Part shown: positions 29,054 through 38,900 of the stretch, piece by piece | Layout of the letters: each line of letters opens with the position of its first letter | Position numbering within the stretch: position 1 is the first letter of the stretch | Source of the DNA: an uncultured Clostridia bacterium | GTDB taxonomy: Bacteria > Bacillota > Clostridia > Oscillospirales > Ruminococcaceae | Assembly: GCA_945873955.1 (NCBI GenBank) | Contig: CAMCFA010000018.1 | Span: forward strand, 1-40,315 | Direction of reading: 5' to 3' | Length of the DNA stretch: 40,315 bases | The notes under the pieces: model-generated | Seen by the model: the letters and a program-made list of their open reading frames with translations, nothing else | What the model was told of the DNA's origin: nothing | Database searches by the model: none | Translations under genes and position numbers: made by a program

Positions 29054-30346
29054 TTATCTTTTTTTCAGAATAAGCTCCATTGAGCCGTTATATCTTCTGC
29101 TGATATCATACCGTTTTACGTCAAATCCTACTTTGTCGAGGATAGGCTTCAAGCCTTCAAATGAGAAATAGGTAAAATGGTTCACCTGATTCCACATAGG
29201 GTCGCTGAATTGCAGCATACGGGTGAACGCGCTGTTATAATTCGGCGTGGACAGCCAGAGTATGCCGTTTTCCGCCAGCAATTTATGAGCTTTTTCCAGC
29301 GCCTTCGTCGGCTGGCTGACATGTTCCAGCACATCTCCCATAATTATCAAATCATACCGTTTGCTGGTGTCAAAATCCAGAAAATCGCACCACTTGATAC
29401 CAACGCCCAGCGCGCCGGAGATGTTTTCGCAGTCCTCCTTGCATATTTCCACCGCGTCAGCTTCATATCCCATTTCCAGCGCACACGCCAGCATTTCGCC
29501 GTTGCCTACGCCTATTTCGAGGTATTTTCTGCCGTCGTTGTACATGCGTATGTTGTTAAAAATCTCGGAATATGTGGCAAGCATGTGCCGGGGGCTGAGC
29601 GTCCCGCCTTTTTTTGTGTAGTGTCCGTTTATCTCATCGCGTTGTTCAATGGGAAAGTTGTAGGCGTACAGATTACCGCAGCCCTTGCATTCCATCCACA
29701 GCTTCGCTGGGGCAAAACGGGAGTCTTTTACAAGTGCCTGATTTACGCAGTAAAAAGGCTCTGCGTTTTGGGAGCCGCATATCGGGCAGACTTCGTTTAT
29801 CGTATCATGAGAGCAGTCGGGGTCGTATTCATATTGACAGCCTGTGTACAATTTGCTGAGGATATCGGGATACTTTCGGAAGTCCTCGATTATCATGTTA
29901 TATGCCCTCATTGGGTCGGCAAGTCCCAGTCTTGCGGCTGCAAAATAATGCGCTGTCACATCGGTGAGACCTTCTCCGTCAAAGAAATCCACCAGCAGCC
30001 TGTCAAGCTCCTCGTCACTGGATCTATCGGCGTCCGGATTCGCTGTAACCAGCAGGAAGCCAACGGTCGCGGAGTGCTTCGCGGTGTTGAACCAGTCCTG
30101 AAACCGTTCGTCGTTCATCTTCTGGCAGAGGGTAAGCTCCTGCACCAGCTTTGTGGACTGTGCGCTGAACTTCTGCTGCGCTTCCTCGTCCTTGACGCTG
30201 ACGTTTGCGACGTGATCGGACGCCAGCATGATGTTTTCTGCCAGCTCCATTGCGGAATAGCTGCCGGAATTATAATCGCTGCTGATCTTATTCAGCTCCT
30301 TGATTATTGCCTTGAAATCCATTATTGCTGCTTTTTTTTCAGCCAT
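29054..30346 (-). CDS. SAM-dependent methyltransferase with zinc-binding region (likely flagellin glycan modification)
   Basis: A 430-residue protein. The N-terminal 170 residues are helical. A CxxC...CxxC region (CPIC at 187-190 and CKGC at 220-223) probably binds zinc. The class I methyltransferase domain follows: EIGVGNGEM at 277-285 as motif I and IIMGDVLEHV at 334-343, then WLSTPNYNS. I start at ATG 30346, with GGAGG 9 bases upstream. It follows the glycosyltransferase by 22 bases and faces the same way as the flagellin gene further up. C. difficile places a glycosyltransferase and methyltransferases next to fliC for filament glycan synthesis, and I infer a similar role here. Confidence 0.75.
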   Translation of the reverse strand: MAEKKAAIMDFKAIIKELNKISSDYNSGSYSAMELAENIMLASDHVANVSVKDEEAQQKFSAQSTKLVQELTLCQKMNDERFQDWFNTAKHSATVGFLLVTANPDADRSSDEELDRLLVDFFDGEGLTDVTAHYFAAARLGLADPMRAYNMIIEDFRKYPDILSKLYTGCQYEYDPDCSHDTINEVCPICGSQNAEPFYCVNQALVKDSRFAPAKLWMECKGCGNLYAYNFPIEQRDEINGHYTKKGGTLSPRHMLATYSEIFNNIRMYNDGRKYLEIGVGNGEMLACALEMGYEADAVEICKEDCENISGALGVGIKWCDFLDFDTSKRYDLIIMGDVLEHVSQPTKALEKAHKLLAENGILWLSTPNYNSAFTRMLQFSDPMWNQVNHFTYFSFEGLKPILDKVGFDVKRYDISRRYNGSMELILKKR

Positions 30347-30368
30347 ATCTATGTACCTCCAGAAGAAG

Positions 30369-32432
30369 TTACTGTGCCATCTGCCTGCGCAGGTCGGCGA
30401 TTTCCGGGTCGTTTGGCATGAGTGTGGAGTACTCGTCAAGCAGTTGTCTTGCCTGTTCAAAGTTCCCGCTTTCGATAAGGTCGGCGATGTTTTCCTTTAC
30501 CGTCTGCGCCAGTACGTCCATTTCGGTCACCTGCTTGGGTTTGTTCATTTCGGCGATCTCTTTTTGGAGCTTTTCATTCAGCGCTGAAACGATAGGTTTG
30601 GCGGCGGGATATGTTTTTAGCAGCATTTTCATTGCCGCTGCGCATATCTTATAATTCTTCTGTTTTCTGGCGATCTCGATGTTGTTCGCCATTGCTGCGC
30701 CAAGCACCTGCGCCGGGAGATCGTCGATCTGTTCAGTGCTGCACAGCTTCGCGCCTGCCTTGCCCCATTCAGCGAACACCTTCTCGATATCTTTTTCGTC
30801 CTCTGCCATGACTGACATAAACGTTTCATATACCCGCAGCGCCGACATAAGCGCTTCACGGCTCTCCAGCCTGTCGGTGGAATAGTTCCCAACGACCTCA
30901 TACATATCTTCAAACAGGTTGCGGCAGAATACCGCGGCAGCCCGCAGGTCGAAGCTGTCGGTCAGCAGTTGGTGGACGTCCTGTCCCTCTGCCAGCATGA
31001 AATACAGAAGCTCATAATATGCTCCGTACCCGTCTGCTATCATCTTTTCTGCTTGCCGGCGGCAGTCGCCGGTGCTGAAATGAACTTCCAGAGTATCCAG
31101 CAGCGCGGACATCATAGGCTCGTTTTTGTACAGCTTTTTGAAGAATTCGATAACATGCAGAGGCTCAGCGTGGGTCTCAACGCAGGAGCGGACAAACGCT
31201 TGCAGCAGGTTTTTATCGAAGTCGCCAAGCTGATTATAAAGAAGCTCTGCACGGCTGTAATCATCAATGCCGTTCATGATGATGAACTCCAGCTTGAATC
31301 TCACCTTGTCGTCATCTGTGTTGTTGTATATGTCTGAAAGGCTAAGATACTGTAATGCGTTGTTGGCTTCCTGATAATTCTCCTCGTGCATGCAGCAGGT
31401 GGTGAGTTCGCTTATCAGACCAGGCAGATTGGACGGGGTTGTTACGCTGAAACAGTATAACATCATGTCCGACGTAAGCAGTTTCTTGTCGATGATATCT
31501 TTGAGAAGCTTTATACCTTTGACGTATTCGGGGATAGCTTCTTTGTATCTTTCAAGATTGCGGAGAGCTATTGCCTTGAACGAATGTATCTCTGCGTCTG
31601 TGCCGAGTACATAGGGACGGAATGTTTTAGGGAGCGCAAAATACTCGTCTGCTGTTGCGATAAGCTCCTCCCATTTTTCTTGATTGAATAACATAGCAAC
31701 TTTTTCACCGTAAAAAGGTACAAGAACAAAATCTTTCTTTTTACGGCATTTTTCCATGCCTTCTTCAAGATAGTGGTATCTTTCGTCGGTTTTTTTGATG
31801 TTATAGCTTTGAAACAACTGGAGATACAGCAGCATGGAGGGGTCTTTTTCAGTGCGCAGACGCTCCTCCAGAAGCTCGGTATTACGCTTGAACTTTTCCT
31901 CTCTGGTTTCTTCATCGGCGTAGACATAACCGAAATGGTCGGCAATGTCGGTAAGTACCTTTGTTGGCGAAGAAAATGGCGATAACGATTCGTGAATAGG
32001 GAAGTCGAACCTTACACCTTTTCTGCGGGTCATTCGCGGTACGAGAACATCGGAATAGACTTTTAATTCCTGATCGTTATAATTTCTTACAGTATATCTT
32101 GCAGTCTGATATTTCTTGTATTCCCCGGTTTTGAAGAATCTGATTATATCATCGCAGGACTGGAATACTTCGTCTGCGTCGAGATACATGTACCACTCGC
32201 CCTTTGCCCGGTCAAGGGTGGAGTTTCGCGCGGCTGCGAAATCTTTTATCCACTCAAAATGGAACACGTTATCTGTGTATTTCTTGGCGATCTCTACGGT
32301 ATTATCGGTAGAGCCGGTATCGGCTATGATAAGCTCGCTTTCGATATTGTCAAGAATGGGTTTTATCGCCGCAAGGCAGCGGTCAAGATACTTTTCCTCG
32401 TTCTTTACTATCATTCCGATGGATAATAGCAT
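30369..32432 (-). CDS. GT2 glycosyltransferase with TPR region (candidate flagellin glycosyltransferase)
   Basis: A 687-residue cytoplasmic protein. Residues 1-100 are a GT-A family 2 core: MLLSIGMIVKNEEKYLDRCL, IADTGSTDNT, and the metal-binding DxD motif D85-A-D87 in YMYLDADEVF. The rest is helical and reads as TPR-like repeats, with a final repeat near the end (NFEQARQLLDEYSTLMPNDP). This resembles SunS-type and flagellin O-glycosyltransferases in Gram-positives. It starts at ATG 32432 with GGAGG 8 bases upstream, and the methyltransferase follows. Its position 296 bases after a flagellin gene, same strand, supports filament modification. Cell-surface or bacteriocin glycosylation is an alternative. 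Confidence 0.75.
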   Translation of the reverse strand: MLLSIGMIVKNEEKYLDRCLAAIKPILDNIESELIIADTGSTDNTVEIAKKYTDNVFHFEWIKDFAAARNSTLDRAKGEWYMYLDADEVFQSCDDIIRFFKTGEYKKYQTARYTVRNYNDQELKVYSDVLVPRMTRRKGVRFDFPIHESLSPFSSPTKVLTDIADHFGYVYADEETREEKFKRNTELLEERLRTEKDPSMLLYLQLFQSYNIKKTDERYHYLEEGMEKCRKKKDFVLVPFYGEKVAMLFNQEKWEELIATADEYFALPKTFRPYVLGTDAEIHSFKAIALRNLERYKEAIPEYVKGIKLLKDIIDKKLLTSDMMLYCFSVTTPSNLPGLISELTTCCMHEENYQEANNALQYLSLSDIYNNTDDDKVRFKLEFIIMNGIDDYSRAELLYNQLGDFDKNLLQAFVRSCVETHAEPLHVIEFFKKLYKNEPMMSALLDTLEVHFSTGDCRRQAEKMIADGYGAYYELLYFMLAEGQDVHQLLTDSFDLRAAAVFCRNLFEDMYEVVGNYSTDRLESREALMSALRVYETFMSVMAEDEKDIEKVFAEWGKAGAKLCSTEQIDDLPAQVLGAAMANNIEIARKQKNYKICAAAMKMLLKTYPAAKPIVSALNEKLQKEIAEMNKPKQVTEMDVLAQTVKENIADLIESGNFEQARQLLDEYSTLMPNDPEIADLRRQMAQ

Positions 32433-32510
32433 AGTCTTTTCCTCCGTCAGTTGTTTTTCGGTGGTTCTATATTTTGAATGTGCTGATGATCGCTCAACAC
32501 TTCAGCTTCT

Positions 32511-32577
32511 ATAAAATTAAAAAGCCTTGTCTTTGGGCGTAACGGTAAATACGCCCTCAAGCGCCCGATACAAGGCT
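32511..32577 (-). terminator. Second hairpin/terminator between flagellin and glycosyltransferase
   Basis: On the minus strand an 8-bp outer stem AGCCTTGT/ACAAGGCT (32523-32530 with 32570-32577) encloses GGGCGTA/TACGCCC (32535-32541 with 32550-32556) and ends in T5-AA-T4. A second CGCCC (32562-32566) could pair with the same GGGCG, giving mutually exclusive folds. It may be a terminator or attenuator for the glycosyltransferase. No known riboswitch class fits. Confidence 0.55.
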
Positions 32578-32634
32578 AGATGTATTATTTTAATTTGCAC
32601 TCTTTTGTGCTTTACTCTTTTTTTATAAATTATA

Positions 32635-32670
32635 ACATAAAACAGCCCCTCGGAAAACCCCAAGGGGCTG
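32635..32670 (-). terminator. Terminator of the left flagellin gene
   Basis: On the minus strand, CAGCCCCT/AGGGGCTG (32663-32670 with 32643-32650) with a 12-nt loop is followed by TTTTATGTT. It lies 60 bases after the flagellin stop. Confidence 0.8.
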
Positions 32671-32728
32671 CGCCTTATGTTGCTATGCCACATTCATCAT
32701 GCAGCTTCGATCAATTCCGGTGAAGGAA

Positions 32729-34162
32729 TTAGCCGAGGAGCTGGAGAATGGACTGCGGCTGCTGGTTTGCCTGAGCCAGCATGGACTGAGCTGCCTGCTG
32801 AAGAATGTTGTACTTGGTGTAGTTCAGCATCTCATTAGCCATATCAGTATCACGGATGCCAGACTCAGCTTCGGTCAGGTTCTCAGCGGTGGTAGTCAGG
32901 TTCTCGATCTTGTGTTCCATTCTGTTCTGGATAGAACCGAAGGTAGCACGAACCATGGAGGTCTTGTTGATAGCGTTATCGATCTTGTCGATAGCTGCGT
33001 TAGCGTCCTCCTGTGTTGCGAGGGAGAGCTGATCGGTACCAAGACCGCGAGCGGAGATATCGAGGTCAGCCTTGAGCTCGCCGATGCCGCTGGTTACATA
33101 GGAGAAGTTGAAGTCAACTGCGTCCTTAGAACGAGCGCCTACCTGAAGGGTTATGCTGTCAGCATAGGTGAGGTTAGCGGAGCCGTGCTCATAAGCGTTA
33201 GGTGTAGATACGCCCTTGTCGATGTCGATCTGACCAACTTCAGCATTAGCCTTATTCTTAACAACGCCATTTGTAACAGTGTACTTCTGCTGCATCTTGA
33301 TAGATGAAGCTGTTACGGTTACGGTAGCACCGTCAATTGTGGTTACCTTTGTACCGGTCTCATCATACAGAGTAGCAGCAGTACCGTTGGAAGCAACAGT
33401 ATAGTTCTTGCCGTTGATAGTAACGCTTGTAGTGTCAGCGTTGATAGCATACTCAGTAGTAGCAGTGATAGTACCATTAAGCTTACCAGTAGTTATCTTG
33501 AGAGATGCGGTGTAGCTTGTTCCGCCGATTGTAACTGTTGCGGGATCAAGCTTGCCTGCGTTAACCTTAAGGTTTACGCCGTCAACGTTGATAGAACCAT
33601 TTACACCTGCGTCTACAGAACCTGCAACTCTGCCTGCATAAGTCATTGTGCCAGCAGGATCTGCGTTCTGATCATAGGTGATTGAGGGATGAGCAGCAAC
33701 CTGATCCTTATTGTTTACGATAGTACCGTCAGCCATTGTACCGCCGTTCAGAGCAACTCTGCCGTTGAAGTCGGTGTCAGCGATCTGGTTCAGTTCGTCG
33801 TTGAGCTGATCGAACTCGAGCTGGATAGCATCGCGGTCGGTGGTGTTATCGTATGTACCGTTAGCGGACTCGGAAGCGAGCTCCTTCATTCTCTGAAGAA
33901 TGGAGTGGGTCTCCTGAGCAGCACCCTCGTAGGTCTGGATCATGGAGATACCGTCCTGCGCGTTTCTCTTAGCCTGGTTAAGACCACGGATCTGGGATCT
34001 CATCTTCTCAGAAATTGCCAGACCTGCTGCGTCGTCGCCTGCACGGTTGATTCTGTAACCAGAAGAAAGCTTCTCAGAAGACTTCTTCAGACCTGCAACG
34101 TTGGTGTTGAGCTTGTTGTACGCGTTGAGCGCGTTCATGTTGTGCTGTACTACCATTCCCAT
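32729..34162 (-). CDS. fliC: Flagellin A, the copy in the ON configuration
   Basis: A 477-residue filament protein. The conserved N-terminal D0/D1 region (residues 1-135) begins MGMVVQHNMNALNAYNKLNT and includes SSGYRINRAGDDAAGLAISE. The C-terminal D1/D0 region (about 385-477) includes NAAIDKIDNAINKTSMVRAT and ends QQPQSILQLLG. The middle is a variable surface domain rich in Thr/Asn/Gly. I start at ATG 34162, since AAGGAGG lies 8 bases upstream; the frame could extend to 34189 but without a ribosome binding site. A sigma-28 promoter lies 145 bases upstream. Its first 200 bases are repeated in inverted orientation at flagellin B. Confidence 0.95.
   Translation of the reverse strand: MGMVVQHNMNALNAYNKLNTNVAGLKKSSEKLSSGYRINRAGDDAAGLAISEKMRSQIRGLNQAKRNAQDGISMIQTYEGAAQETHSILQRMKELASESANGTYDNTTDRDAIQLEFDQLNDELNQIADTDFNGRVALNGGTMADGTIVNNKDQVAAHPSITYDQNADPAGTMTYAGRVAGSVDAGVNGSINVDGVNLKVNAGKLDPATVTIGGTSYTASLKITTGKLNGTITATTEYAINADTTSVTINGKNYTVASNGTAATLYDETGTKVTTIDGATVTVTASSIKMQQKYTVTNGVVKNKANAEVGQIDIDKGVSTPNAYEHGSANLTYADSITLQVGARSKDAVDFNFSYVTSGIGELKADLDISARGLGTDQLSLATQEDANAAIDKIDNAINKTSMVRATFGSIQNRMEHKIENLTTTAENLTEAESGIRDTDMANEMLNYTKYNILQQAAQSMLAQANQQPQSILQLLG
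33962..34161. repeat. Left arm of the flagellin inverted repeat
   Basis: This 200-bp stretch, read on the minus strand from base 2 of the flagellin A start codon, matches 37005-37204 on the plus strand with four mismatches that I could count: three together at codon 13 and one near codon 62. Similarity falls off beyond it and disappears upstream of the start codon. Confidence 0.9.
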
Positions 34163-34166
34163 AGTA
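34148..34166. promoter_or_regulatory. Candidate left recombination site of the flagellin switch
   Basis: On the minus strand the sequence is TACTA-TGGGAATGG-TAGTA, a short dyad centred on the second to fourth codons of flagellin A. It marks the exact edge where the two flagellin loci stop being alike. The counterpart is at 37000-37018. Assigning it as the recombinase site is inference; exact limits and crossover dinucleotide are unknown. Confidence 0.5.
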
Positions 34167-34188
34167 ATATCCTCCTTGAATTTGTACA

Positions 34189-34220
34189 CGCCTCATTGTC
34201 GGAATCATTCCTGCGAGGCG
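34189..34220 (-). promoter_or_regulatory. Hairpin in the flagellin 5' UTR
   Basis: CGCCTC/GAGGCG (34215-34220 with 34189-34194) encloses GGAAT/ATTCC (34207-34211 with 34201-34205), just upstream of the AAGGAGG ribosome binding site. With GGA triplets in the hairpin and in the ribosome binding site it recalls the CsrA target of B. subtilis hag. CsrA control is inference. The element lies inside the invertible segment. Confidence 0.4.
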
Positions 34221-34306
34221 GTTGGTTAAAGTAATAGATTTTTCCGTCCGCCGTTATGTACACTAGGGCTTCGTGGAATTTTAGCTTTTCAGCTATCACG
34301 TATATT

Positions 34307-34333
34307 ATATCGGACGGTTTTTATAAAACTTTA
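34307..34333 (-). promoter_or_regulatory. Sigma-28 (SigD/FliA) promoter of flagellin
   Basis: On the minus strand: TAAAGTTT (34326-34333), 11-bp spacer, TCCGATAT (34307-34314). This is close to the sigma-28 consensus TAAAGTTT-N11-GCCGATAA with exact spacing. It drives flagellin A in the present orientation and would drive flagellin B after inversion. The flanking 34163-34477 region is otherwise AT-rich and noncoding. Confidence 0.85.
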
Positions 34334-34431
34334 GCTTTTTTCTAAATTTTTTTGTGGATTTTTTAAATTTTTTTGATCTCTTCTGATCTGCCCTATTTAA
34401 AGGTATTTATTTTGACAGAACATCATGCTTT

Positions 34432-34460
34432 TTGACAAAAAATGAGACATTATTAATAAT
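34432..34460 (+). promoter_or_regulatory. Candidate promoter of the recombinase pair
   Basis: -35 TTGACA (34432-34437), 17-bp spacer, -10 AATAAT (34455-34460). The leader would be very short, since the AAAGGAG ribosome binding site begins at 34462. A second TTGACA stands 20 bases upstream (34412-34417), within a direct repeat TTTTGACA, and could belong to another promoter or a protein-binding site. Confidence 0.5.
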
Positions 34461-34477
34461 GAAAGGAGTGTTAATGC

Positions 34478-35674
34478 ATGGGGAAAATATGCACAACAGA
34501 AATGTCCGCGCCGCCTGCCCCGATAAAAAGAGTGGCGGCGTATGTGCGGGTATCGCTGGAAACCGACAGGCTGAAGCATTCGCTTGCGGCACAGACCAGC
34601 TATTTCAGCGAGCTTATACGCAGCAATTCCGGCTGGGAGCCGGCGGGGATCTACGCGGACAGCTTCATCAGCGGCACAGAGACCTCCCGGCGGGCGGGCT
34701 TCCAGCGGCTGATCACAGACTGCAAACAGGGGAAGATAGACATAGTCCTGTGCAAATCCATAAGCCGGTTCGCCCGGAACACCGTTGACCTGCTGGAAAC
34801 TGTCCGGCACCTGAAACAGCTTGGCGTGGAGGTGCGGTTCGAGAAAGAGAACATAAACTCTCTGTCCGCCGACGGGGAGCTTCTGCTGACTATCCTTGCC
34901 AGCTTTGCACAGGAGGAGAGCCGCTCCATTTCTGAAAACGTCAAATGGGGGATTCGCAGGCGTTTTCAGTCCGGGAGCGCCGAAATGCGCAACAAGGTGG
35001 TTTACGGCTACCGCTGGGAAGGTGGGCGGTACATTATCCAGCCGGAGGAAGCGGAGGTGGTGCGCGGAATATTCCGGGATTATATCGCAGGGATCTCCCT
35101 GCGGAGGATCGCGGAGCGGCTTGGCACTGCCGGGACAAAGACCTGCCGTGGATTCGGGTTCTGCCACAATACGATAAACTATATCGTCCACAACGAGCTT
35201 TACACGGGAACTATCGTGCTGCAAAAGACCTTTGTAAAGGACTTCATCACCCACGCGCGGTCGCAGAACCGCGGGGAACTTCCGCAGTACAGGCTGTGCG
35301 GCTGCCACGAAGCGATAATCGACGAGGAGACCTTCGCGAAAGCGCAGGAGGAGTCCCGGCGGAGAGCTGCCACAAAGCAGGTATACTGTTTCTCAAAAAA
35401 GCTGATCTGCGGGAGCTGCGGCAAGCCGTTCACGAGGCTGTCCAACAACGTGAAATACGTCTGCTGGCACTGCCGGGACTGCTGTGGTATCAAGCTGAAA
35501 GAGGACAAGCTGTTCTCCCTTTTCGGCATGAGCAGCGAGGAGATATCCGCGCGGATATCCTCTGCGGCGGTGTCGGAGGACGGGCGGCTGGAGGTCAGAT
35601 TCTGTGACGGGGGACGGAAATATGGCAGTACGAATAATGCAGATCCCTGCGACGGTGAACCGGTTCACTGCTAA
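34478..35674 (+). CDS. Serine recombinase 1 (resolvase/invertase N-terminus, recombinase domain, zinc ribbon)
   Basis: A 398-residue site-specific DNA recombinase. The catalytic domain (about 17-160) has the nucleophile S26 in YVRVS, and the conserved SISRFARN (94-101) and QEESRSISENV (145-155). The recombinase domain follows (about 173-285; KVVYGYRW, then IVHNELYTGTIVLQK), then a zinc ribbon with C311, C314, C329 and C332. It is shorter than phiC31-class integrases and lacks an obvious long coiled coil. Start ATG 34478 has AAAGGAG 9 bases upstream. It overlaps recombinase 2 by 53 bases. The two flagellin genes around it suggest its substrate; acting on a lost prophage or element is the alternative. 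Confidence 0.93.
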   Translation: MGKICTTEMSAPPAPIKRVAAYVRVSLETDRLKHSLAAQTSYFSELIRSNSGWEPAGIYADSFISGTETSRRAGFQRLITDCKQGKIDIVLCKSISRFARNTVDLLETVRHLKQLGVEVRFEKENINSLSADGELLLTILASFAQEESRSISENVKWGIRRRFQSGSAEMRNKVVYGYRWEGGRYIIQPEEAEVVRGIFRDYIAGISLRRIAERLGTAGTKTCRGFGFCHNTINYIVHNELYTGTIVLQKTFVKDFITHARSQNRGELPQYRLCGCHEAIIDEETFAKAQEESRRRAATKQVYCFSKKLICGSCGKPFTRLSNNVKYVCWHCRDCCGIKLKEDKLFSLFGMSSEEISARISSAAVSEDGRLEVRFCDGGRKYGSTNNADPCDGEPVHC

Positions 35675-36947
35675 CCCACTTGGGAGCGCTCAGCGCCGCC
35701 GCACCGCAGCCTACGCCCGGGTGTCCACCGATCACGAGGATCAGCTCACCAGCTACGCGGCGCAGGTGAGTTATTACACAGACTATATCCGCAGCCGTTC
35801 TGACCTTGAATTTGTGAACGTCTACACTGACGAGGGGATATCGGGAACTTCAACCGCGCGGCGGGAGGGCTTCCGGCAGATGATAGACGACGCGCTGGCG
35901 GGGAAGATCGACCTTATCATCACAAAATCAGTGTCCCGTTTTGCCCGGAATACCGTAGACAGTCTGACCACGATACGAAAATTAAAGGAACACAAGGTGG
36001 AGTGCTATTTCGAGAAGGAGAATATACGCACCTTCGACAACAAGGGGGAGTTGCTTCTCACAATAATGGCGAGCCTTGCGCAGGAGGAGAGCCGCTCCAT
36101 TTCAGAAAACTGCGTGTGGGGTCAGCGGAAGCGGTTTTCGGACGGAAAAGTGACGGTGCCGTTTTCAAGATTCCTAGGCTATGACCGGGGCGAGGACGGA
36201 AATCTTGTCATAAATCCGCAGGAGGCGGAAATCGTGCGGGAGATTTACCAGATGTTTCTTGACGGCGCTTCGCCCTATGCAATTGCGAAGCGGCTCACCG
36301 AGCGGGGAATTCCCAGCCCCGGCGGGAAAGACAGGTGGTACAAGGCGACTGTTACCAGTATTCTTTCAAATGAGAAATACAAGGGGGACGCGCTGCTTCA
36401 AAAGGTGTACACCACTGATTTCCTCACCAAGCGAAAAAAGCTGAACGAGGGGGAAGTCCCGCAGTATTATGTCGAGGGAAACCACGAAGCTATAATTTCC
36501 GCGGAAATATTTGAGCTTGCGCAGTCGGAGCTTGAACGCCGCAGGAAGTCCTCCGCCCCGGAGGGCAGCGGCATTTTCATGTCGAAGATCCTCTGCGGGA
36601 GCTGCGGCGGCGTATACACAGCAAAGGTGTGGCACTCAACGAACAGGTACCGGCGGGTGATCTGGCAGTGCGGCTGTGAGTGCGGCACGCCCCACCTTAT
36701 GGAAGAGGAACTGCGGCTGGTGTTTGTGCGGGCGGTGAATATGCTGCTTGCTGAAAGAGAGGAGGGATATGTGCCGCCCGGTGCAGCGCCGCCGGAGTAC
36801 AGCTCTGCACTGCAAGGGCTGGAGCAGCCGCTGGCGGGATTTGACGAGAGCCTGTGGCTGGCGCTGGTAGATCACATCACGGTTTTGGGCAGGAATGACG
36901 TTCGGGTGGCTTTCCGCGACGGTACAGAGATAAAGGTTGAACTATAA
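35622..36947 (+). CDS. Serine recombinase 2 (resolvase/invertase N-terminus, recombinase domain, zinc ribbon)
   Basis: A 441-residue recombinase, related to but clearly distinct from recombinase 1. The nucleophile is S35 in YARVSTDHEDQL. SVSRFARNTVDSL and QEESRSISENCVWGQRKRF complete the catalytic domain, followed by the recombinase domain (PFSRFLGYDRGEDGN, then NPQEAEIVREIYQMF) and a zinc ribbon (CGSC, then CGCECG). I start at ATG 35622, where GGGGGA lies 7 bases upstream, rather than the GTG at 35604. Its start lies inside the end of recombinase 1, so the pair is translationally coupled and may act together. A strong terminator follows the stop, directly before flagellin B. Confidence 0.93.
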   Translation: MAVRIMQIPATVNRFTANPLGSAQRRRTAAYARVSTDHEDQLTSYAAQVSYYTDYIRSRSDLEFVNVYTDEGISGTSTARREGFRQMIDDALAGKIDLIITKSVSRFARNTVDSLTTIRKLKEHKVECYFEKENIRTFDNKGELLLTIMASLAQEESRSISENCVWGQRKRFSDGKVTVPFSRFLGYDRGEDGNLVINPQEAEIVREIYQMFLDGASPYAIAKRLTERGIPSPGGKDRWYKATVTSILSNEKYKGDALLQKVYTTDFLTKRKKLNEGEVPQYYVEGNHEAIISAEIFELAQSELERRRKSSAPEGSGIFMSKILCGSCGGVYTAKVWHSTNRYRRVIWQCGCECGTPHLMEEELRLVFVRAVNMLLAEREEGYVPPGAAPPEYSSALQGLEQPLAGFDESLWLALVDHITVLGRNDVRVAFRDGTEIKVEL

Positions 36948-36952
36948 TGTAG

Positions 36953-36978
36953 CGCCCTGCTAAACGCAGGGCGTTTTT
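36953..36978 (+). terminator. Terminator between recombinase 2 and flagellin B
   Basis: CGCCCTGC/GCAGGGCG (36953-36960 with 36966-36973), 5-nt loop, then TTTTT. It prevents recombinase transcripts from entering flagellin B and so helps keep that gene silent. After inversion it would stand in front of flagellin A. Confidence 0.9.
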
Positions 36979-36999
36979 CTGCGTTAAGAATTGGGTCAA

Positions 37000-37018
37000 T
37001 ACATTGGGAATGGTAGTA
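37000..37018. promoter_or_regulatory. Candidate right recombination site of the flagellin switch
   Basis: TACAT-TGGGAATGG-TAGTA on the plus strand, the counterpart of 34148-34166 in inverted orientation. The left half keeps TAC but differs at the next two bases; the core and right half are identical. As at the left, this is where the homology between the loci begins. Site assignment is inference. Confidence 0.5.
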
Positions 37019-38722
37019 CAGCACAACATGAACGCGCTTTCCGCGTACAACAAGCTCAACACCAACGTTGCAGGTCTGAAGAAGTCTTCTGAGAAGCTTT
37101 CTTCTGGTTACAGAATCAACCGTGCAGGCGACGACGCAGCAGGTCTGGCAATTTCTGAGAAGATGAGATCCCAGATCCGTGGTCTGAACCAGGCTAAGAG
37201 AAACTCTCAGGACGGTATCTCCATGATCCAGACCTTTGAGGGCGCTCTGCAGGAGTCCCACTCCATTCTTCAGAGAATGAAGGAACTGGCTGCTGAGTCC
37301 GCTAACGGTACATATAAGACTGAGGTTGACCGCGACGCTATCCAGCTCGAATTCAACCAGCTCAACGACGAACTCGACCAGATCGCTGATACCGACTTCA
37401 ACGGTACTGTAATGCTCAACGGCGGCGAAATGGCTGATGGTCTTAAGGCTACCAACGGCAAGTTCGATTACGCAAATGCTGTCCGTGACGCACAGCAGAT
37501 CGGTTCTGCAGGTGGATTTATCAAGGGCGTTGATACCGGTGCATACGCTGGTACAAACACCGAAACCGTAACATTCACCTATGCTCAGAAGGCAGACGGT
37601 ACTTTTGAGTGGAACACTGATGCTTCTCCTGACGCTAAGGGTACAGTAACATCTAATGATAACGGTGGTTTCTCTTATGATGGCGCTGTATTTGCTATTG
37701 ATACTAGCAACCTTGTAAATGGCGACACTATCACTGTTGACTTTACCAAGACAACTGCTGCTGTTGGTAAGACTGCTGTGACAACCGGTTATAACATTGA
37801 CGGCGGTGACACCGGCGTTGTTAAGCTTGATAAGACACCGTTAAAGATTGATATTGCTGATGCCGCTATTACATCTGAAAAGATTGCAAATGCAGTAAAC
37901 GCTCTTAATGGTCTGAGCATTTCCTATACCGCTACTGCTGGTGCAACAACATTAACAACAACGAAAATAAACAATGTTGCAATACCTGGTGATACAAGCA
38001 CTCCTACAATTGCTAAGATCAGCGACAATGAATCCTTGACAATTGATAAGGATTCTAAAATCTATTATGTTGATGCAAGCGGCACTTCAACTCAGATTGG
38101 CTCTCTGCAAACGGTAGCGGCAAGCGCTAATGCTGCTAAGGCTGGCAATGTTACCGTTGAGGTGAATGTTGCTGATGCAACATATACTCCGGCAACTCCT
38201 AATGCCGTTAAGGTTAAGGAGCCGGAAGCAACTGTTTCTCAGGCTAACTCCAACAATGCTGCAACTGCTCCTCTGACCTACACCGACCACCTGGTACTCC
38301 AGACCGGCGCTAGAACTAAGGACAGCGTTGACTTCACATTCGCTTACAAGACCGATGGTATGGGCACTCTCAAGGCTAACCTTGATGTATCTTCCAGAAC
38401 CAATGGTCTTGGCACTAAGGATCTGTCCCTGAACACTCAGGAAGACGCTAACGCTGCGATCGACAAGATTGACAACGCTATCAACAAGGTTTCCATGGTT
38501 CGTGCTACATTCGGTGCTACACAGAACAGACTGGAACACAAGGTTGAGAACCTGACCACAACCGCTGAAAACCTGACCGAAGCTGAGTCTGGTATCCGTG
38601 ATACCGATATGGCTCAGGAAATGCTGAACTACACCAAGTTCAACGTTCTTCAGCAGGCAGCTCAGTCCATGCTGGCTCAGGCAAATCAGCAGCCGCAGTC
38701 CATTCTCCAGCTCCTCGGCTGA
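37004..38722 (+). CDS. fliC: Flagellin B, predicted silent copy in this orientation
   Basis: A 572-residue flagellin. N-terminal D0/D1 (residues 1-135) is almost identical to flagellin A for the first 65 residues; C-terminal D1/D0 (about 480-572) is also close, ending QQPQSILQLLG. The central surface domain is about 100 residues longer and different, so it would give another antigenic type. The frame begins with TTG at 37004 where flagellin A has ATG. No Shine-Dalgarno precedes it, no promoter is visible, and a terminator lies 26 bases upstream. The frame is fully open, which argues for use after inversion rather than decay. An internal ATG at 37010 also lacks a proper ribosome binding site. 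Confidence 0.9.
   Translation: MGMVVQHNMNALSAYNKLNTNVAGLKKSSEKLSSGYRINRAGDDAAGLAISEKMRSQIRGLNQAKRNSQDGISMIQTFEGALQESHSILQRMKELAAESANGTYKTEVDRDAIQLEFNQLNDELDQIADTDFNGTVMLNGGEMADGLKATNGKFDYANAVRDAQQIGSAGGFIKGVDTGAYAGTNTETVTFTYAQKADGTFEWNTDASPDAKGTVTSNDNGGFSYDGAVFAIDTSNLVNGDTITVDFTKTTAAVGKTAVTTGYNIDGGDTGVVKLDKTPLKIDIADAAITSEKIANAVNALNGLSISYTATAGATTLTTTKINNVAIPGDTSTPTIAKISDNESLTIDKDSKIYYVDASGTSTQIGSLQTVAASANAAKAGNVTVEVNVADATYTPATPNAVKVKEPEATVSQANSNNAATAPLTYTDHLVLQTGARTKDSVDFTFAYKTDGMGTLKANLDVSSRTNGLGTKDLSLNTQEDANAAIDKIDNAINKVSMVRATFGATQNRLEHKVENLTTTAENLTEAESGIRDTDMAQEMLNYTKFNVLQQAAQSMLAQANQQPQSILQLLG
37005..37204. repeat. Right arm of the flagellin inverted repeat
   Basis: Matches the complement of 33962-34161 over 200 bases with four mismatches. 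It begins one base after the first base of the flagellin B TTG codon. Upstream of it the two loci share nothing. Confidence 0.9.
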
Positions 38723-38772
38723 TTACCGTAAGGAACGGAATGGCAGCATAGCTGCTTGATCCACCTATGATC

Positions 38773-38807
38773 AATACCCTGCATAGCATTTGCTGTGCAG
38801 GGTATTT
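38773..38807 (+). terminator. Terminator of flagellin B
   Basis: AATACCCTGCA/TGCAGGGTATT (38773-38783 with 38796-38806) with an inner AGCA/TGCT stem, followed by a weak T-rich tail. It lies 50 bases after the stop. Confidence 0.7.
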
Positions 38808-38900
38808 GTATACTTTGAAAACGCTGCACCGGTCAGAAATATATCTGAATTATACTATATCGCTGCGGCGCTTGTCAACTGCTCCCCACAAATTATCTAT

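Follow-up and report, generated by a model that had tools for sequence, protein, structure and literature searches.

A probable flagellin inversion switch associated with paired large serine recombinases in an uncultured Ruminococcaceae bacterium and its genus

Here we describe a locus from an uncultured Clostridia bacterium of the Ruminococcaceae (assembly GCA_945873955.1), in which two outward-facing flagellin genes flank a central 2.84-kb segment that carries one flagellin promoter and a pair of large serine recombinase (LSR) genes. The stretch analysed, hereafter the window, is one whole contig of 40,315 nucleotides (C18) of a draft genome (G000) of 3.47 Mb in 172 contigs, and was compared with a survey of 43 draft genomes of the genus. 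Judging from sequence comparison, we consider it quite probable that flagellins are switched here by site-specific inversion, in a two-state form in the window and in a multi-cassette form in relatives. The 2.84-kb segment would be the invertible part of the switch, with the paired LSRs recombining two copies of a site at flagellin codons 4-8 (AGTACAGCACAAC...). Inversion would then detach the sole sigma-D promoter, the leader, the ribosome-binding site and the first codons from one flagellin body and join them to the other, so that one flagellin is on and the other off, and in relatives a single expression site would draw on several silent flagellins at other loci.

Anatomy of the flagellin locus

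The left flagellin, FL (477 aa; 32729..34162, minus strand), and the right flagellin, FR (572 aa; 37004..38722, plus strand), point outward on either side of the segment, as the initial annotation of this DNA had proposed, and both Flagellin_N and Flagellin_C domains were found in each product. FL starts with ATG preceded by the ribosome-binding site AAGGAGGA (34170..34177, minus strand), and is currently joined to a sigma-D-type promoter (TAAA..TCCGATA; 34308..34333, minus strand) that was recognized from the sequence and by motif scan and lies inside the segment. FR starts with TTG and has a reading frame intact across 572 codons, and the motif scan revealed no ribosome-binding site and no sigma-D promoter within 350 bp upstream. 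The claim that only the left flagellin possesses a promoter and ribosome-binding site is thereby upheld, and the search for a promoter of FR's own, by which the same annotation had proposed to challenge the switch, came out in the switch's favour.

An inverted repeat of 315 nt, 94% complementary, covers the gene starts (left arm 33852..34166, minus strand; right arm 37000..37314, plus strand), and this length and identity rule out a chance repeat. Over the first 200 bases of the two genes the repeat is near-perfect, as annotated, with five mismatches (positions 1, 36, 37, 38 and 183) rather than the four originally counted, and the 100 bases upstream are indeed unrelated (30/100 identical, ungapped). 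A second inverted repeat of 320 nt (88%) covers the flagellin 3' ends (left arm 32727..33046, minus strand; right arm 38405..38724, plus strand). When the segment was flipped in silico both flagellin frames stayed open, in agreement with the earlier prediction; the segment limits first given (34163-37003) are about right, with the probable crossover displaced a few codons into the genes. An Rfam search of positions 32000-38900 returned 0 matches.

By genome pattern search we located a right half-site at the active flagellin FL (34130..34151, minus strand) and the same one at the silent flagellin FR (37015..37036, plus strand), and with up to 3 mismatches allowed it occurs in just these two places in the genome. 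Based on relatives, the crossover probably falls within its first ~13 bases. A silent-type left half-site (AATTGGGTCAATACATTGGGAATGGT; 36989..37014, plus strand) adjoins the half-site at FR; it recurs in G021, the closest relative that carries this module, and also in G032, where the upstream setting is different.

The recombinase strand of the segment carries two genes, which are the only identified genes on that strand and include no repressor gene. We call them recA and recB by order only, and this recA is not the RecA of homologous recombination. RecA (398 aa; 34478..35674, plus strand) and RecB (447 aa, lacking the coiled-coil insert; 35604..36947, plus strand) have reading frames that overlap by 71 bases. 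Both are full-length and possess a Resolvase N-terminal domain followed by a Recombinase domain, each above its curated cut-off, and they are therefore LSRs, as also placed by a tree. The two serine recombinase genes of the initial annotation thus stand, while the terminator it placed after them is a hairpin followed by a T run 3' of recB (36953..36978, plus strand) that was read from the sequence and was not among the results of a terminator scan of the region. Ahead of recA lies a sigma-A-type promoter-like site (34432..34460, plus strand; 11/12 matches), which is weak alone because the region holds 8 such sites versus 6.8 expected. RecB cysteines 331, 334, 356 and 360, invariant in 11 sequences, probably mark a zinc-ribbon-like region, and RecA has a similar set. 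The best NCBIfam matches of the recombinases include the CcrB, CcrC and CcrA models, with the CcrB model scoring 137.9 and 138.8 bits, far below its cut-off of 900; among the matches listed, the sole DNA-invertase model is the Mpi family (26.8 bits versus a cut-off of 272).

Active and silent flagellin starts across the genus

Silent flagellin starts share a common architecture, in which TGTRYTATTTTCAG is followed by ten variable bases and then AGTACARCAYAACATGAACGC, and a ribosome-binding site is absent. A search for TTTTCWG, ten bases and AGTWCARCAYAAC yielded 25 matches in 11 of the 43 genus genomes (0 with a reversed-pattern control), and the active start pattern matched in 23 of the 43. 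Exactly one active start was found in 7 of the 11 silent-pattern genomes and none in the other 4, with gaps at contig ends possible in all of them. The highest number, up to seven silent flagellin starts, was seen in G034. The direct, mutually exclusive switch by inversion put forward in the initial annotation is supported by the anatomy and by the relatives, but its two-gene picture was too narrow. A variant silent half-site is present in the window, G021, G032 and G023. In non-coding DNA the silent half-site is kept between about -28 and -11; farther upstream there is little conservation, and the settings are otherwise different. The strict silent pattern was absent from all 389 family genomes outside the genus, its 2 occurrences among 396 family genomes both being in members of the genus, of which that draw included 7. 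The two site patterns gave 0 matches each against viral contigs.

At the loci fetched, a subset of the sites in the genus, a sigma-D motif was found within 350 bp of 18 of 24 starts that bear a ribosome-binding site, compared with 292 of 20000 background windows, and at 0 of 29 starts without one (28 of these being flagellins and one not). Of the six misses, two deviate from the motif by one base, and the other four all belong to G040, where a ribosome-like AGGAGG occurs with no ATG and no sigma-D promoter. Two loci of that genome (L170 and L171; G040:C13 and C15) have four flagellin starts with a common upstream stretch, and no active start was found there.

The presence of silent sites follows that of the recombinases. 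Silent sites occur in 14/14 genomes with a flagellin-clade LSR pair versus 1-3 of 29 others, with clades taken among the matches listed (Fisher p 1.9e-10 to 8.7e-9, values that ignore relatedness and treat species that are not independent as if they were). On 8/8 contigs that carry both, the LSR pair starts 215-558 bp from the silent site and is divergent from it. In a tree of 57 sequences, with RecB relatives among the matches listed, the RecA and RecB branches each contain two flagellin-linked clades, the window type spanning 4 genomes and the other type 10; these are split by pairs without flagellins, and two recruitments, or losses, are therefore possible. Both types of LSR pair lie near thrS in several genomes (the window, G021, G009, G042 and G024). 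A contig scan with the RecB alignment found a flagellin start at one (L181, in G032) of the best 80 of 500 relatives' loci. Within the scans made, the LSR family is thus widespread, and its link to flagellins was seen in this genus only.

Sites adjacent to the recombinases contain a dyad, TGTACT..AGTACA, whose centre is off the likely crossover. A crossover within the ten bases before AGTACA in relatives was ruled out: no dinucleotide there is consistently common to active and silent sites, and the active leaders all keep their own letters.

An inverted stretch between sister species

The sister species G009 and G024 were found to differ by an inverted stretch between their active and silent flagellins. 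The DNA on either side of the two convergent genes is 94-95% identical and runs in the same direction in both species, with indels nearer the sites, and the stretch between the flagellin ends aligns better when inverted (348 identities and 16 gap positions) than directly (280 and 104). With 100 nt trimmed off each palindromic end, z was 18.7 for the inverted alignment versus 1.6 for the direct one. At the active site 59/60 bases just upstream are identical versus 353/420 just downstream, identity falling at the site and not gradually along the repeat, and the active central domains of the two species are only 37% identical. The G009 active centre is 77% identical to that of a silent G034 body, compared with 34-40% in its other five comparisons. 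In G024 the mismatch-free stretch common to the active and silent sites is AGTACAACACAAC, which would bound the crossover provided the exchange was recent. The inverted intergenic DNA (L083 4576-5014; L080 5349-5795) also holds a small open frame with a hydrophobic stretch, which we take to be perhaps a type I toxin peptide. A provisional FliB label for the protein that neighbours the sites in G009 and in G022 was dropped, Pfam returning 0 families for both.

Reversibility and the genus-wide picture

As every flagellin supplies the same right half-site, each exchange would regenerate one active and one silent site, and the reaction would thus be reversible, with a directionality factor perhaps unneeded. 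The form of RecB fits such reversibility. The coiled coil of LSR integrases contributes to the one-way character of recombination, and this insert of ~100 residues is missing from flagellin-clade RecB in 12/12 aligned sequences and retained in 7/10 other relatives; we treat its absence as a lost subdomain and not as ground for leaving the LSR family. In excerpts of PMC10754689, a Listeria integrase minus its coiled coil displayed similar, low activity on both site pairings. We infer that this LSR pair catalyses the exchange, that the exchange is probably reversible and that switching may well occur in this strain.

Extending this to the genus, we lean slightly towards a system of flagellin antigenic variation in which an LSR pair, no longer bound to one direction since RecB lost its coiled coil, would move a single expression site between many silent flagellin cassettes at scattered chromosomal positions, with sites regenerating via the common right half-site and the window being the minimal two-cassette form. 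If true, LSRs, usually known as one-way integrases, would have been made into a switch that works in both directions and acts on a major target of immunity and of phages, by a simple site design that dispenses with a directionality factor, and the pair would be a natural bidirectional one. It would also explain why unrelated flagellins are found at the same promoter in close species with ~94% identical flanks, and the flagellin type recorded in draft genomes of the genus may then be a snapshot of one switch state.

Alternative explanations

Inversions might instead be the work of homologous recombination acting on the long flagellin repeats, with the LSR pair being a mobile-element remnant or acting elsewhere, an explanation that we regard as unlikely. 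Repeats of 315 and 320 nt are available for it, and same-family LSRs without flagellins are common, as the contig scan illustrates. It is also favoured by G021, where the entire module of 6 kb runs the other way relative to the glycosyltransferase flank. The breakpoints of that inversion coincide with the 3' ends of the flagellins, a region without any known site, and point to homologous recombination between the 3' repeats. Set against this are the silent half-site, kept in non-coding DNA despite differing upstream settings, the constant proximity of LSR pairs to silent sites together with their co-occurrence, and the drop in identity between G009 and G024, which comes at the site itself and not gradually along the repeat.

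Less likely still is a frozen arrangement, in which the segment flipped in ancestors but no longer does so here, FR being a pseudo-silent duplicate. That G000 and G021 share the same promoter orientation is in line with this, but FR is intact and both recombinases have kept their full length and both domains. Moreover, the segment (34201-36900) is ~99% identical to G021:C70 while the flanks are 88-93% identical, which speaks for a recent transfer or for strong constraint and not for decay. We give very little credence to the view that both flagellins are expressed without any switch, FR being served by a promoter that escaped detection or by transcription running on out of the recombinase genes. 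From the sequence, initiation at its TTG, or at the inner ATG of GGAATG, is possible; on the other hand FR has no ribosome-binding site or sigma-D promoter in the 350 bp upstream, a hairpin and T run lie in between, and every silent flagellin start tested in relatives likewise lacks both the ribosome-binding site and the promoter (0/28).

Several observations weigh against site-specific switching as proposed here. Among the genomes compared, none was seen to carry the window module in flipped form. Orientation among relatives had been named beforehand in the initial annotation as a point on which the switch could fail, and G021 has its promoter oriented as in the window; these are two snapshots and weak evidence either way. 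The breakpoints of the G000/G021 inversion are off the sites, and the G009/G024 inversion could itself have come from homologous recombination between the gene-start repeats. Inversion between sites is seen in one sister-species comparison and in none within a strain. The bodies beside the G009/G024 inverted stretch are not orthologous in their centres (33-37%), and further exchange must therefore be assumed, while the upstream neighbours of the leader differ between G009 and G034, which inversion at the sites leaves unexplained. In the tree the flagellin-linked LSRs do not form one clade. A degenerate silent site occurs in G020, which lacks a clade LSR pair, and the promoterless starts of G014 and G040 are odd. 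All comparisons were made on draft assemblies, in which 20/56 flagellin sites are no more than 150 bp away from the end of a contig; such clustering fits population variants, but simple repeats as well. Finally, in the excerpts of PMC10754689, removal of the coiled coil cut the Listeria integrase to ~2% and abolished phiC31 activity.

Comparison with known switching systems

Both the window and its relatives have one promoter-bearing copy and intact promoterless copies with a common 5' stretch, as expression-site switches do. The proposed site-specific switch works like the slp, vpma and vsa systems and serves the same end as Hin, and differs by its paired LSRs and direct exchange of flagellin bodies. 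Hin of Salmonella is a small invertase, and control of the second flagellin there runs through a repressor. In its fljBA/fliC system, a recombinase gene and a promoter in the invertible segment set flagellin choice (excerpts of PMC11868660). The window resembles it in having a serine recombinase and a promoter controlling flagellin choice within the segment; unlike it, there are two LSRs with Recombinase domains (398 and 447 aa), and both flagellin bodies would be joined directly to one leader, with no repressor gene in the segment. The initial annotation's comparison with Hin accordingly survives as regards the promoter in the segment and the absence of an identified repressor gene, but not as regards the recombinases, which are LSRs and not Hin-type invertases. 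Staphylococcal CcrAB also consists of two adjacent LSR genes; the likeness is in the adjacent pair, whereas no mobile cassette was identified here and the CcrB score is far below cut-off.

In Lactobacillus acidophilus, an expressed and a promoterless silent gene (slpA/slpB) on a 6 kb segment are swapped by inversion (excerpts of PMC6015585), a comparable exchange of an expressed and a silent gene, although of an S-layer protein and not of flagellin. The Mycoplasma vpma, vsp and vsa systems have one promoter and several silent genes that are joined by site-specific inversions, the first 714 coding bases of vsa moving with the promoter; these encode lipoproteins and use a Xer-type recombinase, Xer1 (excerpts of PMC2268961). 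Here, in contrast, LSRs and flagellins are involved, and the cassettes of relatives are on several contigs. In the gut commensal Flavonifractor plautii (hin / csrA-tldR) a stretch with a FliA-type promoter inverts and is tied to flagellar regulation; the passages of PMC13418256 describe a ~120-bp promoter inversion by a hin-type gene, and flagellin cassette exchange is absent from them. The RecV flagellar switch of Clostridioides difficile is a site-specific inversion affecting flagella (excerpts of PMC8890394 and PMC7446863), but it is an on/off control of the flgB operon and not a choice of flagellin. We found no description of flagellin switching by LSRs in the literature covered, from which subscription papers and preprints were mostly absent, and do not claim its absence from print; the terms flagell, serine recombinase and motility are all absent from the excerpts of PMC11892184.

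Neighbouring genes and additional observations

Downstream of FL and co-oriented with it are a glycosyltransferase with a GT2 domain (30369..32432, minus strand) and, next after it, a methyltransferase (29054..30460, minus strand). Several relatives carry homologues of the glycosyltransferase on contigs with flagellins, and the glycosyltransferase/methyltransferase pair of G021 lies beside the other flagellin. A flagellin and its modifying enzyme may switch together.

Two short contigs, L161 (G022:C99, 3544 bp) and L165 (G019:C49, 4304 bp), each have an active flagellin start at one end and a silent one at the other, both facing outward, and enclose other genes, including a sugar-phosphate mutase in L161. 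Elsewhere in the genome of the window, a 1722-aa open frame with similarity to flagellin N- and C-termini occurs at G000:C21:27801 (L003, L159), and long frames resembling it were seen in G018, G026, G028 and G035. The short contigs G000:C150, C156, C157 and C158 carry more LSR genes, some of them belonging to the family of the switch pair.

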